Source: Candidatus Chloroploca sp. Khr17
Lineage (GTDB): Bacteria; Chloroflexota; Chloroflexia; Chloroflexales; Chloroflexaceae
Length of the DNA: 64,000 nucleotides
Direction of reading: 5' to 3'
Assembly (NCBI RefSeq): GCF_004138165.1
Contig: NZ_RYFF01000003.1
Location: forward strand, 124,001 to 188,000
The notes under the pieces were generated by a model that saw only the letters and a list, made by a program, of their open reading frames with translations, was not told the DNA's origin and did no database searches. A program made the translations under genes and the position numbers. Position 1 is the stretch's first letter, and every line of letters begins with the position of its first letter. Shown one piece after another: positions 8,840-15,037 of this stretch.

Positions 8840-10126
8840 ATGGGTACAAAAAATTCACGGCTCCAGGGATTTTATCAATTAAACCCGTTTGAGCGTTTGC
8901 AGATGGTCAAGTCCTTTGACGGTCTTTGCGAAGAAGATCTCCGGGTTTTGCATGGTGGTCATGGCACCCTGACGATTGAGCGTGCCGACAAGATGATCGA
9001 AAATGTGGTTGGCACCTACAACCTGCCGCTTGGCATCGCAACCAATTTTTTGATCAACGGGCGTGACCATTTGATCCCGATGGTCGTTGAAGAGCCGTCA
9101 ATTGTTGCCGGCGCAAGCTACGCGGCCAGAATGGTACGCGAGGGCGGCGGTTTTGCCACCAATAGCACCGATCCCGTGATGATCGGGCAAATTCAGATTG
9201 TTGGCGTGGCGGCCCCACAGAGTGCGCGCCACGATATTTTCACCCGCAAAGAAGAGATCCTTGCGATCGCCAATGCGCAGAGCCGCTCGCTGGTCGGGCT
9301 TGGCGGCGGTGCCCGTGATCTCGAAGTCAACCTGCATGCAACGAGCCCGATGGGGCCAATGATGGTTGTTCACCTGCTGGTTGATACTCGCGATGCGATG
9401 GGTGCCAACGCGATCAACTCGATGTGCGAGGCTGTTGCCCCGCTTATCGAGCAGATTACCGGCGGGCGCGTCTATCTGCGCATTCTGTCGAATCTCAGTG
9501 ACCGTCGTCTCGCCCGCGCCCGTTGTGTCGTGCCGACCCGCGCCCTCGAACGCGATGGGTTGAGTGGCGAAGAGGTGGCCGAGGGCATTATGTGGGCCTA
9601 TGCCTTTGCCGCCGTTGATCCCTATCGGGCAACCACCCACAACAAGGGCATTCTCAATGGGGTTGACCCGGTGATTGTCGCAACCGGCAACGACTGGCGC
9701 GCCATCGAGGCTGGGGCGCACGCGTATGCTTCACGCAGCGGCCAGTACCGCTCGTTGAGCGTGTGGGAGCGCGATGACGAGGGCAATCTCGTTGGGACAC
9801 TCGAAATGCCGATGGCCGTTGGCATTGTCGGCGGTGCCACCAGGGTGCATCCCGCTGCCCAGACCGCGCTCAAATTGCTTGGGGTGCAGTCAGCCAACGA
9901 ACTGGCCGAGATCTGTGTCGCCGCCGGCCTCGCGAGCAATCTGGCCGCCATGCGTGCCCTCGCCTGCGAAGGGATCAACCGCGGCCATATGGGGCTCCAC
10001 GCACGCCAGATTGCCATGGCCGCCGGTGCCCACGGCCCCCTCGTAGACGAGATCGTTCGCCGGATGGTCGAAGAGCGCAATATCAAACCCGCGCGGGCGG
10101 AAGAGTTGATCGCTGAATTGCGGTAA
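8840..10126 (+). CDS. mvaA: Hydroxymethylglutaryl-CoA reductase, class II-like
   Basis: This 428-residue enzyme makes mevalonate from HMG-CoA, the committed step of the mevalonate route to isoprenoids. It has the soluble class II layout without a membrane anchor. The conserved catalytic residues are visible: Glu54 in ENVVG, Asp185 in DAMGAN, Lys269 in NKGILNG, Asp285 in GNDWRA and the histidine motif GHMGLHARQIA near 382-391. The ribosome site GGAGGAAG precedes the ATG. It is the first gene of a plus-strand run with HMG-CoA synthase and a thiolase-like gene, so the operon covers the upper mevalonate pathway. The stop codon is followed by a dispersed repeat before the next gene. NADH versus NADPH preference cannot be called. 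Confidence 0.95.
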   Translation: MGTKNSRLQGFYQLNPFERLQMVKSFDGLCEEDLRVLHGGHGTLTIERADKMIENVVGTYNLPLGIATNFLINGRDHLIPMVVEEPSIVAGASYAARMVREGGGFATNSTDPVMIGQIQIVGVAAPQSARHDIFTRKEEILAIANAQSRSLVGLGGGARDLEVNLHATSPMGPMMVVHLLVDTRDAMGANAINSMCEAVAPLIEQITGGRVYLRILSNLSDRRLARARCVVPTRALERDGLSGEEVAEGIMWAYAFAAVDPYRATTHNKGILNGVDPVIVATGNDWRAIEAGAHAYASRSGQYRSLSVWERDDEGNLVGTLEMPMAVGIVGGATRVHPAAQTALKLLGVQSANELAEICVAAGLASNLAAMRALACEGINRGHMGLHARQIAMAAGAHGPLVDEIVRRMVEERNIKPARAEELIAELR

Positions 10127-10284: not shown

Positions 10285-11334
10285 ATGATGAAACCAGAAC
10301 GCCCGGTTGGGCTGATTGGCTACGGGGCGTATGTTCCCCGCTATCGCATCGCTGCGCGTGAGATTGCGCGCATCTGGACTGATGGGCAGGGTGGGGTGCC
10401 CGTGGATGCCAAGAGTGTGCCGGGCCCTGATGAAGATACGATTACGCTCTCGATCGAGGCCGCGCGCAATGCCCTGGCACGCGCCGGGGTCACGATCGAA
10501 CAGGTGAGCGCGGTCTGGGTCGGCAGTGAGAGCCATCCATATAGTGTGAAGCCTTCGGGCACGATCGTGGCCGAGGCCCTCGGGGCGACGCCATGGGTGA
10601 GCGCTGCCGACTTTGAGTTTGCCTGCAAAGCGGGCAGCGAGGCGCTGACCGCAGCGATGGCCCTGGTGGGCAGCGGGATGGCTACGTATGCCATGGCGAT
10701 CGGGGCCGATACGGCGCAGAGCCGCCCCAGCGATGCGCTGGAATATACCGCGTCGGCAGGGGCAGGGGCGCTGCTGATCGGGCCAGCCGAAGAGTCTGTG
10801 GCAACGATTGATGCAACCGTGAGCTATGTGAGCGATACGCCCGACTTCTTCCGGCGCGCCGATCGCCCCTACCCTGTCCATGGCAATCGCTTTACCGGCG
10901 AGCCGGCCTACTTTCACCAGATCCAATCGGCGGCCCAACGCTTGATGAGCGATCTGGGCAAGACCGCCAAGGATTTCACCTACGCGATCTTCCACCAGCC
11001 GAATGCCAAGTTCCCTCAGGCCGTCGCCAAACGCCTGGGTTTTAGCGATAGTCAGATTGCGCCCGGCTTGCTCAGCCCACAGATCGGCAATACCTACTCG
11101 GGCGCGGCTATGGTCGGCCTGTGTGCAACACTTGACGTTGCGCAACCCGGCGAGACCATCTTTATCACGACCTACGGCAGCGGCGCTGGCTCGGATGCTT
11201 ATGCGCTCACCGTCACCGAGCAGATCCTCGAGCGGCGCAACCGTGCCCCGCTGACCGAGGCCTACCTCAAACGGCAGGTCTTTATTGACTATGCGGTCTA
11301 TGCGAAATGGATCGGCAAACTCGTCATGGGGTAA
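10285..11334 (+). CDS. Hydroxymethylglutaryl-CoA synthase (archaeal-type)
   Basis: A 349-residue thiolase-fold enzyme condensing acetyl-CoA with acetoacetyl-CoA. It resembles the archaeal HMG-CoA synthase branch, beginning VGLIGYGAYVPRYRI. Catalytic residues fit: Glu82 in GSESHPY, Cys114 in EFACKAGSEA, His237 in FHQPNAKFP, plus the NTYSGAAMVGL and TYGSGAGSDAY loops. An in-frame start at 10126 would add 53 residues encoded by the dispersed repeat; ATG at 10285 with AGAGAAGGA upstream is preferred and matches where homology begins. In archaea this enzyme works in a complex with a thiolase and a DUF35 protein; both homologues lie downstream, although each has lost key residues here, so the synthase may be the only active member of such a complex. 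Confidence 0.93.
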   Translation: MMKPERPVGLIGYGAYVPRYRIAAREIARIWTDGQGGVPVDAKSVPGPDEDTITLSIEAARNALARAGVTIEQVSAVWVGSESHPYSVKPSGTIVAEALGATPWVSAADFEFACKAGSEALTAAMALVGSGMATYAMAIGADTAQSRPSDALEYTASAGAGALLIGPAEESVATIDATVSYVSDTPDFFRRADRPYPVHGNRFTGEPAYFHQIQSAAQRLMSDLGKTAKDFTYAIFHQPNAKFPQAVAKRLGFSDSQIAPGLLSPQIGNTYSGAAMVGLCATLDVAQPGETIFITTYGSGAGSDAYALTVTEQILERRNRAPLTEAYLKRQVFIDYAVYAKWIGKLVMG

Positions 11335-11427
11335 TTCTTTTGTTTGCCTGATTTTGGTGGCTGCGCCGCCAAAACCAGGCAAACGAGGGCTACGCTGAAA
11401 AGGATTGTTAAGCAAATAAGGAGATGT

Positions 11428-12591
11428 ATGCGACCATCATATATTGTGAGTGCTGCGGCAACTGCGGTTGGCGAACATTATGCACGCAGTCTGAGCGATC
11501 TGGCGAGTGAGGCGGTACGTAGCGCGTTTGCCGCCCTACCCGAGGTAAGCCCCGAGCGCGTTGGGGCGCTTTTTGTCGCGAATGCCATGGGTGAGGCGCT
11601 GGCAAGTCAGGGGCAACTCGGGGCGTATCTAGCCAACGCCGTCGGGTTGCGTGGGGTGCCTGCGTTCCGGGTTGAGGCCGCCGGCGCGAGTGGCGGGGTT
11701 GCGTTACACCAAGCTGCCCAGGCGATTGCAACGGGGCAGTGCGACCTTGTTGTCGTCCTAGGAGCCGAAAAGGTGACCGATCGCCTTGAAGGGGCGCTCG
11801 AAGCAGCGCTCGCGCTGCATACCGACGCCGAGGCCGAGGCGATCCACGGGTTGACGCTGACCTCGCAGTGGGCGCTGCTGATGCGGCGGTATATGCACGA
11901 ATACAACTATGGCCTCGAAGCCTTTGCGCCCTTCCCGGTCAATGCGCATGCCAATGCAGCAAAAAATCCGCAGGCGCTCTACCGGTTTGCGATCAACGCC
12001 GACAAGTACCGCAAAGCCGGGATGGTCGCCTCGCCACTGAATATGCTCGATTGCAGCACCGTCGCCGATGGGGCCGCATGTGTCATCCTCGCGGCTGAAT
12101 CGCTTGCCCGCGAGCTCCCCGGGCCACTCATCCGGCTGGCTGGCACCGCCGTCGCCACCGATACGCCTTCGCTGGGCGCACGCCGTAACCCGCTCGATCT
12201 TGAAGCAGCGCGGGCCAGTGCCCACGTTGCGCTTGGACGTGCCCATTTGGGCCTCAGCAATGTGCAAGTCTTTGAGTTGAGTGACCCTCACGGCATTGCG
12301 GCCACGCTTGCGCTCGAGTCAATCGGCTCCTACGACCGCGGCGAAGCTCCGCGGCACGCCGCCGACGGGGCCATTGCCCCAACCGGGCGCACGCCGCTCG
12401 CCACGGCAGGCGGCTACAAAGCCCGTGGCGACATCGTCGGCGCCAGTGGCGTCTACCAGGTCGTCGAACTGGTACGCCAGTTGCGCGGCGAAGCCGGCCC
12501 AACCCAGGTCGCCGACGCCCGCGTTGGGCTGGCGCAGACGCTCGGTGGCCTTGGGGCAACCGCAGCAACCGCCGTCATCGTCGCTGAGTAA
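11428..12591 (+). CDS. Thiolase-fold protein lacking the catalytic residues
   Basis: A 387-residue member of the SCP2/archaeal acetoacetyl-CoA thiolase branch by fold motifs (VEAAGASGG, SQWALLMRRYMHEY, DGAACVILA, GGLGATAATAV). The active site looks dismantled. The nucleophilic Cys expected in VEAACASGG is Gly86 (codon GGC where TGC is expected). The His of the usual EVHDAF motif is Ser285 in FELSDPHG. The His of the usual KGHPVGATG motif is Asp335 in ARGDIVGASG. Length and framework are otherwise intact, without frameshift. The start at 11428 follows AAGGAGATGT. It lies between HMG-CoA synthase and Yip1/DUF35 genes, so a structural role in an HMG-CoA synthase complex is plausible. An undetected alternative chemistry cannot be excluded. 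Confidence 0.85.
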   Translation: MRPSYIVSAAATAVGEHYARSLSDLASEAVRSAFAALPEVSPERVGALFVANAMGEALASQGQLGAYLANAVGLRGVPAFRVEAAGASGGVALHQAAQAIATGQCDLVVVLGAEKVTDRLEGALEAALALHTDAEAEAIHGLTLTSQWALLMRRYMHEYNYGLEAFAPFPVNAHANAAKNPQALYRFAINADKYRKAGMVASPLNMLDCSTVADGAACVILAAESLARELPGPLIRLAGTAVATDTPSLGARRNPLDLEAARASAHVALGRAHLGLSNVQVFELSDPHGIAATLALESIGSYDRGEAPRHAADGAIAPTGRTPLATAGGYKARGDIVGASGVYQVVELVRQLRGEAGPTQVADARVGLAQTLGGLGATAATAVIVAE

Positions 12592-12716: not shown

Positions 12717-13370
12717 ATGATTCAGGAAATGATCAACGGCAGCGTCGGTGTGCTGAGTAAACCTTCGGTGGCGACCTTCGAGGAATATGAGAAAGATAAT
12801 CTGGGTTGGGCATTGATCTACTCGGTGCTCGCCGGGGTGATCAATGCGATCATTAGTGGCATTCAGTTCGCGCTTTTTCCACCAGCCGCCGTCAATCCGC
12901 AAGATTTAGGCGATATCCCCCCGGAACTGGCCGAGTTGCTCGGCGGGATGAGCACCGGCGCAGCCGCGACCCCCAGCATCTGGGCCTCGGTTATCGGGGC
13001 AATCGTCTTTACGCCCCTCATTCTGCTGATTGCCTGGGGCATTACCTTTGCCCTTGGACGTGCGTTTGGGGGCACCGGCAAGTTTGGTGAACTGGCCTAC
13101 AATATGTCGCTCTTTGGGGCACCCATTACGGTGATCGGGAGCCTGCTGGGCCTCATTCCATTCCTTGGTGGCATCGCGGCATTTGCGCTCTTTATCTACA
13201 ATCTCTACCTCACCTATCTCGCGATCCAGGCTGGCATGAACCTGCCGGGCAATAAGGCTCTGTACGTCATTCTGATCCAGTTTGCCATCGGGATCGCCAT
13301 CGGCCTCTGCTTTTTCCTTTTCTTTGCCCTCATGATCGCAGCCATTATTGGCGCGGCTGGTGGGGTCTGA
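12717..13370 (+). CDS. Yip1-domain integral membrane protein
   Basis: A 217-residue protein with an N-terminal amphipathic stretch containing ATFEEYEKDNLGWALIYSVL, typical of bacterial Yip1-family proteins, followed by about five hydrophobic helices. The start at 12717 has a CAGGAGCC ribosome site. It lies in the same orientation between the thiolase-like and DUF35 genes of the mevalonate operon, 28 nt before the latter. Function in bacteria is unknown for this family. Its position suggests a role at the membrane linked to isoprenoid synthesis, but this is only context. Confidence 0.75.
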   Translation: MIQEMINGSVGVLSKPSVATFEEYEKDNLGWALIYSVLAGVINAIISGIQFALFPPAAVNPQDLGDIPPELAELLGGMSTGAAATPSIWASVIGAIVFTPLILLIAWGITFALGRAFGGTGKFGELAYNMSLFGAPITVIGSLLGLIPFLGGIAAFALFIYNLYLTYLAIQAGMNLPGNKALYVILIQFAIGIAIGLCFFLFFALMIAAIIGAAGGV

Positions 13371-13397: not shown

Positions 13398-13793
13398 ATG
13401 GAAATTGCTCGTCACTGGCGCCAACGCGCCGCACGCTATCGGTTGCAAGGTCAACGTCATCGTGAAACTGGTGAAGTTCGCTTTCCCGCTCAGCCCCCGG
13501 CCATCGGCGAAGATCCGGCGGTGTGGGAAGCCGTTGAGCTTAGTGGGCGCGGCGAACTCTATAGCTTCAGTGTGCTCCGTCAGGGGCCTGATGGCTATGA
13601 GGGGCTCGTGCCTTACCCGGTCGGGATGGTGCGCCTTGAAGAAGGCCCACTGGTCGCGGCCCAGTTGACCGATTGCGCCGAGGCCGATCTTGCGATTGGT
13701 CAATCCGTCGAGATGGTGACCCGTCAGTTGCTCGATACCGGCGAAGATAATGTGCTCGTCTATGGGTACAAGTTTCGCCCGGTGCTTGTGTAA
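13398..13793 (+). CDS. DUF35 OB-fold protein without zinc-ribbon cysteines
   Basis: A 131-residue homologue of the DUF35 proteins that bridge thiolase and HMG-CoA synthase in archaea and partner acyl-CoA enzymes elsewhere. The N-terminal helix ([15 protein letters not shown]), the linker FPAQP and the OB-fold segment [14 protein letters not shown] are recognisable. The zinc ribbon is eroded: the usual CxxCG after YRLxG reads HRETG, and the second CxxC reads AIGED, so no zinc ligand pair remains. The ribosome site is GAGGAG. It closes the set thiolase-like, Yip1, DUF35 downstream of HMG-CoA synthase and probably acts as a structural bridge. Confidence 0.8.
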
Positions 13794-13798
13794 GCGCA

Positions 13799-15037
13799 AT
13801 GTCAACTGTTGCCCTCTACAATCTGACCATGATCGAGCTCGAAACCCTGCTGCGTGACTTGGGCCAGCCCGCCTTTCGCGCGAAACAGTTGTATCGTCAA
13901 CTTTATGTCAATCTAGCCGGCGATGCGATGACGATGACCGATCTGCCGCTCGCCCTGCGCGAGCGGCTCGCCAACGAGGTGCGCCTGGGAGCGTTGCAGC
14001 TTGAACGGGTGCAAGAGACCGATCAGGGGCTGACGCGCAAGGCGCTCTTTCGGCTGCACGACGGGGCTGTGCTCGAAACCGTGTTGATGATCTATCCTGA
14101 TCGCGCAACCGTCTGCGTCAGTACGCAGGCTGGTTGCGCGATGGGCTGCGATTTCTGCGCCACCGGCAAGCTCGGTCTGTTACGGAATCTGACGGTGGGC
14201 GAGATCGTCGAACAGGCGCTCTGGGCTTCACGTGAGTTGCGGAAGTGGCAGGCAAGCCTGGTGGCCCCTGGCGCAACCGACAGCCAACTCGAGGCACCCC
14301 CTGCGACAAGCCGGGCCAGACAACAAGCCTTGCCGCGCCCCGAGGCCACCCGAACCGACGACGATGGGCAGTGGTGGGGCGGCGAAGGCGAGGCCTTTAC
14401 CGAACGGGTCACGCACCAGGTCGCCAGGGTGACGAATCTGGTCTTTATGGGCATGGGTGAACCGTTCGCCAACTACGACCGCTGGTGGGCAGCCGTCGAG
14501 CGCCTGCACGATCCACAGGGCTTCAACCTTGGCGCACGGAGCATGACCGTCTCGACGGTCGGACTTGTGCCAGGCATCAGGCGCCTGGCCGAAGCTCCCT
14601 TGCCAATCAGCCTGGCAATCTCGTTGCATGCACCCGACGATGCGCTGCGCAGCGCAATGATGCCGATCAACCAGCGGTATCCGCTGGTCGAATTGCTTGA
14701 GGCAACCCGAGACTATATCGACCAGACTGGGCGACGGGTCAGCTTTGAATATGTGCTGCTGCAGGGGCGCAACGACCACCCGCACCAAGCGCTTGCCCTC
14801 GCCCGCTTGCTCCGTGGTCAGAGCGTCAGCAGAGGGGCGCCCTTGCTCTGCCATGTCAACCTGATCCCGTGGAACCCCGTGCCAGGCATGCCGCTCGGCC
14901 GCTCAGAGCGCGAACGCGTGACGGCCTTCCAGCAAGTCTTGCTCGACTATGGCATCGCCTGCACCGTCCGGATCGAACGAGGCGTCGCCATTGCCGCCGC
15001 CTGCGGGCAACTCGCAGGCACCTCAGTCCCAAGTTAA
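13799..15037 (+). CDS. rlmN: Dual-specificity RNA methyltransferase RlmN with an internal insertion
   Basis: This 412-residue radical SAM enzyme methylates C2 of A2503 in 23S rRNA and A37 of some tRNAs. The [4Fe-4S] motif CAMGCDFC is at residues 113-120, and the two cysteines of the RlmN mechanism are Cys106 (TVCVSTQ) and Cys402 (AACGQL). FMGMGEP, STVG and HAP motifs follow in normal order. A hydrophilic segment of roughly 55 residues (about 150-205), rich in Ala, Pro, Arg and Gly, interrupts the normal spacing between the iron-sulfur motif and [12 protein letters not shown]. The ATG lies 6 nt after the DUF35 stop with no clear ribosome site, suggesting coupled translation; a second ATG at 13829 would remove conserved N-terminal residues. 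Confidence 0.93.

Follow-up and report, generated by a model that had tools for sequence, protein, structure and literature searches.

A DUF35 protein lacking zinc cysteines accompanies a degenerate thiolase in the HMG-CoA synthase operon of Chloroflexales

The HMG-CoA reductase/synthase operon of Candidatus Chloroploca sp. Khr17 encodes a DUF35 bridge protein in which all four zinc cysteines are replaced, together with a thiolase that has lost its catalytic residues. Both losses recur at the loci that we surveyed across the order Chloroflexales, and the two proteins are under strong selection, probably as structural parts of a working HMG-CoA synthase. Judged by its sequence, this type of DUF35 protein is a departure from the zinc-binding DUF35 proteins described in the literature. 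The window referred to below is the whole stretch of 64,000 nucleotides that we analyzed.

Results

The operon has the gene order HMGR-HMGS-thiolase-(Yip1)-DUF35, in which HMGR and HMGS are the HMG-CoA reductase and synthase (Table 1). The top model for the window reductase, TIGR00532, is labelled degradative. A TIGR00748 search of 82 genomes of the window's order returned the synthase above the cut-off in 71, and 75 order-level loci, including the window, were examined for gene content and order. The thiolase is present at 70 of the 75 and DUF35 at 67, the remaining eight stopping at a contig end. Synthase, thiolase, and DUF35 thus lie together in the window and at most of the order-level loci. 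The synthase is of the archaeal type and retains its catalytic residues across the order (Glu in 73/73, Cys in 73/73, and His in 75/75 rows with letters). A Yip1 match occurs at 25 of the 75 loci, all in the near family (f1); the gene is located after DUF35 at two loci (L049 and L054) and is present in two copies at another (L039).

Table 1. Features of the window discussed in the text
Feature	Position	Strand	Basis and remarks
HMG-CoA reductase	8840..10126	+	Pfam HMG-CoA_red 1.1e-114; TIGR00532 442 bits, cut-off 260
Archaeal-type HMG-CoA synthase	10285..11334	+	NF003274 535 bits; TIGR00748 496 bits, cut-off 353; start codon chosen in analysis, listed ORF starts at 10126
Degenerate complex-type thiolase (Thiolase_C_1 family)	11428..12591	+	PF22691 4.9e-35; start codon chosen in analysis, listed ORF starts at 11344
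Thiolase codon 86, Gly replacing catalytic Cys	11683..11685	+	Alignment with 7yvy/6esq
Thiolase codons 285-288, SDPH replacing HDAF	12280..12291	+	Alignment, order rows
Thiolase codon 335, Asp replacing His of GHP	12430..12432	+	Alignment, order rows
Yip1-domain membrane protein, between thiolase and DUF35	12717..13370	+	Pfam Yip1 5.2e-15
DUF35 bridge protein without zinc cysteines	13398..13793	+	ATG start, 131 aa; Pfam, PDB match, order alignment, predicted model
HRET replacing first CxxC, residues 21-24	13458..13469	+	6esq_E alignment and column counts
AIGED replacing second CxxC, residues 35-39	13500..13514	+	Loose alignment with 6esq_E; column counts
Presumed rlmN-like gene, named from its sequence	13799-15037	+	Directly after DUF35

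The zinc site of characterized DUF35 proteins comprises four ligands, either C4 or, in Shy, C3H1. The window protein matches the OB-fold model OB_ChsH2_C (PF01796) at 2.9e-22 and 78.8 bits (cut-off 27.1), and its score against the ribbon model zf-ChsH2 (PF12172), 11.6 bits, lies below the cut-off of 23.2. Among PDB sequences, it matches the archaeal bridge 6esq_E best (1.1e-22). In that alignment the RCKTCG of 6esq_E falls on RHRETG of the window and VCPDC on the stretch PAIGED, where the alignment is loose and the second CxxC pair finds no residue-for-residue equivalent. An AlphaFold2 model built on 79 aligned sequences has a mean pLDDT of 85, with residues 1-12 mostly below 50. Foldseek ranks three 6esq bridge chains first for this model, and VIA-align superposes it on 6esq_F with a Z of 15.8 and an rmsd of 2.7 over 126 residues; the span, 4-131, takes in the ribbon region. 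The predicted model therefore has the two-domain ribbon and OB fold. The initial annotation had claimed that both ribbon CxxC pairs were replaced and that the OB-fold was kept, and both statements hold, the second in the Pfam match as well as in the predicted structure.

The loss of the cysteines is general in the order. None of the 67 order-level DUF35 proteins has a zinc-ribbon CxxC, and Cys occurs at none of the four aligned zinc positions in any row. The first pair of positions holds His in 46 rows and otherwise Asn, Ser, or Asp, followed by Thr in 43 and otherwise Ser or Asp. At the second pair we found Ala in 23 rows, a gap in 15, and ten other letters, followed by Glu in 50, a gap in 13, and four others. 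A CxxC string does appear in five of the 67 rows, in each case upstream of the domain start in the untrimmed reading frame. Two additional order genomes (L236 and L237) likewise encode DUF35 without the zinc CxxC. Since the zinc cysteines are absent in 67 of 67 rows, their loss is neither chance nor a sequencing slip. Zinc held by other ligands, which the annotation had named as grounds for abandoning its proposal, finds no counterpart in the alignment: no set of Cys and His residues is conserved in the N-terminal part of the 67 rows, and the commonest candidate ligands, His6 (57/67) and His21 (46/67), are not invariant. One operon copy of G003 (L038) has a DUF35 sequence identical to that of G035 (L105), which may mean that L038 lies on a contig that does not belong to the G003 draft.

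Loss of catalysis in the neighbouring thiolase was likewise claimed, and its catalytic residues are indeed gone. Compared with its best PDB matches, 7yvy and 6esq_A, the window thiolase has Gly for the catalytic Cys, Ser for the His of HDA, and Asp for the His of GHP, and so lacks the residues of an active thiolase. Across the 70 order thiolases the Cys is never present (Gly in 68, Thr in one, and the nucleophile elbow itself deleted in one, L043 of G081). The His of HDA is replaced by Thr in 39 rows, Ser in 24, and Cys in two and is retained in two, and that of GHP by Asp in 63 and Asn in four, three rows being gapped at each site. The fold is predicted to be kept, with a model of pLDDT 91 that matches 6et9/6esq at a TM of about 0.93 and also 7yvy. 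The names thiolase and acetyl-CoA acetyltransferase, given to proteins of this group by homology, are probably misnomers. A second complex-type thiolase occurs in four near-family draft genomes (L239, L355, L356, and L357 in G001, G023, G037, and G028, respectively); it has Thr for Cys (EAATATGA) and keeps HDAF, and GHP is retained in three of the four, the fourth sequence stopping before it.

The degenerate site is itself conserved. D286 and a new His, H288, are each found in 67 of 67 rows with letters (3/70 gapped), and K331, R333, and G334 are likewise invariant in the order alignments. These residues could mark new chemistry at the old active site instead of silence, and they speak for the alternative that the thiolase-fold subunit has acquired a new activity or senses a ligand through D-P/Q-H and K-x-R-G-D/N, with the zinc-free DUF35 shaping the pocket. 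A precedent exists in the steroid aldolases, which reuse the same position for the retroaldolase motif of Sal and Ltp2, YDHF or YDCY, and in which the zinc finger of the DUF35 protein Shy shapes the Sal pocket, as described in passages of PMC12329534. The order motif, [T/S/C/H]-D-[P/Q]-H at the old HDA site, differs from the aldolase motif, however: its new His stands one place later and there is no Tyr. The subunit is also located in an HMG-CoA reductase/synthase operon. In other dead lineages the Cys is replaced by G, D, E, Q, or S, and the residues that replace the His differ as well, so that no single new active site unites them. We regard a new activity as rather unlikely.

We examined how far zinc loss and thiolase death go together outside the order. 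At 1e-60, a synthase was matched in 91 of 400 genomes sampled evenly from the phylum, and we examined all 52 of those from outside the order. The thiolase has Cys-His-His in 15, and all 15 have both DUF35 CxxC pairs. It has lost the Cys in 37, of which 35 have both CxxC pairs, with DUF35 lying elsewhere in the genome in some of them; the DUF35 of G369 consists of the OB domain only, and a PF01796 search of genome G497 returned no DUF35. A second sample of 80 named loci (Anaerolineae, Caldilineae, Thermoflexia, and other Chloroflexota records), which are the best 80 of 584 relatives and overlap partly with the first sample, gave the same pattern and eight further OB-only DUF35 proteins, all eight with dead thiolases. 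The nine OB-only proteins (L166, 8502-8798; L264, L289, L296, L297, L299, L306, L316, and L317) are roughly 95 aa long, have helix and ribbon deleted, and all stand beside dead thiolases; the forward frames of the 350 bases before them contain no ribbon motif. Deletion of the ribbon is thus a second route to a putatively zinc-free bridge.

Merging the loci at 99% synthase identity left 195 distinct ones. In the order, 60 combine a dead thiolase with a zinc-less DUF35. Outside it, 33 have an intact thiolase and a zinc ribbon, none has an intact thiolase without zinc cysteines, nine have a dead thiolase and a deleted ribbon, and one keeps the Cys and the zinc ribbon and has lost one His. A further 57 combine a Cys-less thiolase with both CxxC pairs (DUF35 adjacent or in the same genome), and of these 20 have lost all three catalytic residues, 33 two, and four one. 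No thiolase state was assigned to eight order rows (one being L043) and seven outside rows of the 195, nor a DUF35 state to 26 outside rows (19 with a dead thiolase, one with an intact one, and six with neither state). L281 was left without an assigned state, the match there being another thiolase on the other strand, and the DUF35 of L275/L326, with ribbon and OB in different frames beside an intact thiolase, was left out of the zinc-less count. The frame split in L326 (2308-2911), a Caldilineaceae record, is a frameshift or an assembly error.

These tallies overturn the proposal that the metal site was lost in parallel with thiolase catalysis. The 57 loci with a dead thiolase and a zinc ribbon rule out strict co-loss, and the 20 stripped of all three residues are the very combination, intact zinc cysteines beside equally degenerate thiolases, that had been named as evidence against it. 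What survives is a one-way nesting, in which the zinc-less DUF35 proteins of the surveyed loci all accompany dead thiolases and are found at none of the 33 intact-thiolase loci with a readable DUF35.

On a tree of 163 HMG-CoA synthase sequences, we counted a minimum of 12 changes in thiolase state and two changes in zinc state. The tree comes from a quick search without a mixture model and its backbone is weakly supported, so the 12 changes are a count on one tree; operon transfer may have contributed to them. The residue replacing the Cys varies by lineage (G, D, E, Q, or S), which fits repeated loss of the thiolase. The 50 order rows group together as a clade that no other row enters, and the nine ribbon-deleted proteins form a second clade with a support of 99. 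Cysteine replacement in the order and deletion of the whole ribbon in the second clade are the two zinc-loss events, and both fall inside dead-thiolase lineages.

Zinc loss may instead be lineage-specific structural drift or zinc saving, unlinked to the thiolase, a reading compatible with a scaffold role. Only two loss events are at hand, and the thiolase is changed anyway in 102 of the 133 tree rows scored for both traits, so both events could fall in dead lineages by chance; they are too few to prove that zinc loss depends on thiolase death and are weak evidence for it. In aldolase-like thiolase/DUF35 pairs of the same class, moreover, L191 and L196 have lost three of the four ribbon cysteines, and all four are present in L189, L190, and L192, whose thiolase partners are of the same kind. 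Against such drift stands the absence of zinc-less DUF35 from the 33 distinct intact-thiolase loci. We consider it a serious possibility, if on the whole an unlikely one.

At four loci (L251, L253, L255, and L272) HMGS is directly followed by DUF35, and we considered loss of the thiolase gene. A Thiolase_C_1 protein was found elsewhere in all four genomes, each with Cys-His-His, the copy of L253 being broken by a stop near its end, and we dropped that reading. Among the 11 genomes without a thiolase at the locus that were searched, three draft genomes (L273, L285, and L304) returned no Thiolase_C_1, and L285 and L304 also returned no DUF35.

Both genes are maintained. Over the 58 within-genus pairs common to the four genes, median dN/dS is 0.064 for HMGR, 0.064 for HMGS, 0.068 for the thiolase, and 0.085 for DUF35, and the reading frames of the operon genes are intact across four families. 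At about 0.07-0.09, the thiolase and DUF35 come near the synthase, and both genes are thus under purifying selection and not in decay. An account of them as relics, to which the missing catalytic and metal residues might point, is scarcely credible given these values and the intact frames. Within DUF35, the ribbon core (W7, R8, R13, Y14, L16, G18, F29, and P30) shows little or no variation among 79 sequences, zinc-bearing and zinc-less alike. The ratio of ribbon to OB change is 0.94 in the zinc-less order, between the 1.14 and 0.69 of zinc-bearing relatives with intact and dead thiolases (15 rows each). The zinc-less ribbon is thus constrained and not running free, and it may be somewhat relaxed.

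A synthase beside a dead thiolase would draw its acetoacetyl-CoA from elsewhere. Of the 82 order genomes, 79 encode a canonical thiolase (PF02803, best E 2e-38 or better); the same search returned none in G062, G071, and G080, of which G062 and G071 are draft genomes with the complex locus present. The window genome has three PF02803 matches. The best (L195), the one inspected, has the Cys, GHP, and second Cys motifs, and one of the other two could be a weak cross-match. Among the 52 outside genomes, the canonical thiolase is missing (weak cross-matches only) in 6 of 15 with an intact complex thiolase versus 0 of 37 with a dead one (Fisher 2.5e-4). The corresponding figures in the named sample are 2 of 20 intact versus 3 of 53 changed (p 0.61), for 73 of the 80 genomes after seven without a thiolase state were left out, and the 53 include L243, in which the Cys is retained. 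The pooled p is 0.0017, uncorrected for sample overlap and kinship. We did not retain a link between dead complex thiolases and canonical ones, which is seen in the first sample and absent in the named one.

Two of the three exceptions in the named sample (L301 and L319) have an intact complex-type paralogue elsewhere in the genome (L351 and L353); the third is L257. Type II polyketide synthases have paired chains, and by analogy the dead thiolase could be the heterodimer partner of a live one. L351 and L353, intact paralogues in genomes whose operon thiolase is dead, agree with this idea, but the window genome has one Thiolase_C_1 protein and no close partner was found there, which makes such a pairing very unlikely.

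Discussion

We consider it probable, if far from assured, that the operon encodes a scaffold complex with a live synthase, a pseudo-thiolase, and a structural, zinc-free DUF35, supplied with acetoacetyl-CoA by a separate thiolase. The three proteins would form a physical complex. The thiolase subunit would have become a pseudo-enzyme that keeps its fold and probably its contacts and CoA-facing surface; it would be unable to make acetoacetyl-CoA, which ordinary thiolases encoded elsewhere would supply. The pseudo-thiolase and DUF35 would be retained because the folding, stability, or CoA tunnel of the synthase depends on the assembly. After the thiolase was freed from catalytic shaping, the ribbon could lose its metal, and its conserved core, together with a polar-Gly turn at the former first zinc knuckle, would now hold it in shape. 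We infer the inactivity of the thiolase, the scaffold role, and this order of events from the patterns described above.

Several observations count against this reading. Measured against the OB domain, the ribbon evolves more quickly without zinc than in zinc-bearing relatives with dead thiolases (0.94 versus 0.69), the invariant residues at the old active site may point to new chemistry, the link to a canonical thiolase is absent in the named sample, no canonical thiolase was found in the draft genomes G062 and G071, and no DUF35 was found in G497, whose thiolase is dead. Roseiflexus castenholzii, which we take to belong to the window's order, bears on whether the synthase works. Its alternative mevalonate pathway does, according to passages of PMC3857490, from which we expect the synthase step to operate in this group.

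Among the closest known systems is the archaeal thiolase/HMGS/DUF35 complex, which shares the three adjacent gene families, the archaeal-type synthase, and the fold; 6esq is the best PDB match of the window DUF35 and among the best of the window thiolase. That complex, described in passages of PMC12329534, PMC6392133, and PMC6996347, is accounted for by the channelling of acetoacetyl-CoA from one live enzyme to the other. In contrast, the window thiolase has lost its catalytic residues and DUF35 its zinc ligands, and acetoacetyl-CoA is presumably not made inside a complex of the window type. The fused CoA site and the channelling of the archaeal complex would here be at most predicted features.

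Our best reading, by analogy, is that the kind of complex is already known from the PhlABC Friedel-Crafts acylase (5m3k), which is bridged by DUF35 and keeps one dead condensing subunit as a structural part, and that the window represents its mirror-image variant. According to passages of PMC6392133, the Cys of the HMGS-like PhlA is replaced by Gly, PhlB acts as the bridge and retains a Cys4 site, and activity is confined to the co-expressed whole. PhlABC thus has a dead HMGS-like subunit and a live thiolase-like one, a pattern reversed in the window; its bridge keeps the Cys4 zinc site, and it has no role in the mevalonate pathway. The steroid aldolases Ltp2-ChsH2 and Sal-Shy resemble the window in pairing a thiolase fold of changed catalytic residues with a DUF35 partner, but they have YDHF/YDCY and bound zinc where the window has SDPH and no zinc ligands. 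The Chloroflexota mevalonate operons outside the order (Anaerolineae, Caldilineae, Thermoflexia, and others) share HMGR-HMGS-thiolase-DUF35 with an often dead thiolase and differ in keeping the zinc cysteines, except in the ribbon-deleted clade.

Passages of PMC6996347, from 2019, describe DUF35 proteins as scaffolds and state that every DUF35 structure known at that time bound zinc; passages of PMC2954200, from 2010, present the two-domain form as conserved throughout the homologues. The literature that we covered, in titles, opening abstracts, and passages and with most subscription journals outside it, describes no zinc-less DUF35 and no dead thiolase beside HMGS. Archaea are represented in our comparison by PDB entries alone.

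A bolder extension can be formulated, to which we give little credence as a whole. In the phylum, the channelling complex would have given way many times to a synthase that a pseudo-thiolase holds in place; in this order the newly fixed residues D-P/Q-H and K-x-R-G-D/N would sense CoA or acetoacetyl-CoA and gate the synthase through the zinc-free DUF35, like a valve. If true, this would place a control point at the entry of isoprenoid synthesis.

Under the scaffold reading, the first enzyme looks dead and the genes of the assembly are still conserved, so that scaffolding would be separable from channelling. The phylum offers a natural series of proteins, with intact thiolases, dead ones with zinc, dead ones without zinc, and dead ones with the ribbon deleted, and the window protein provides a natural example of a zinc ribbon whose predicted fold persists in the absence of zinc ligands.
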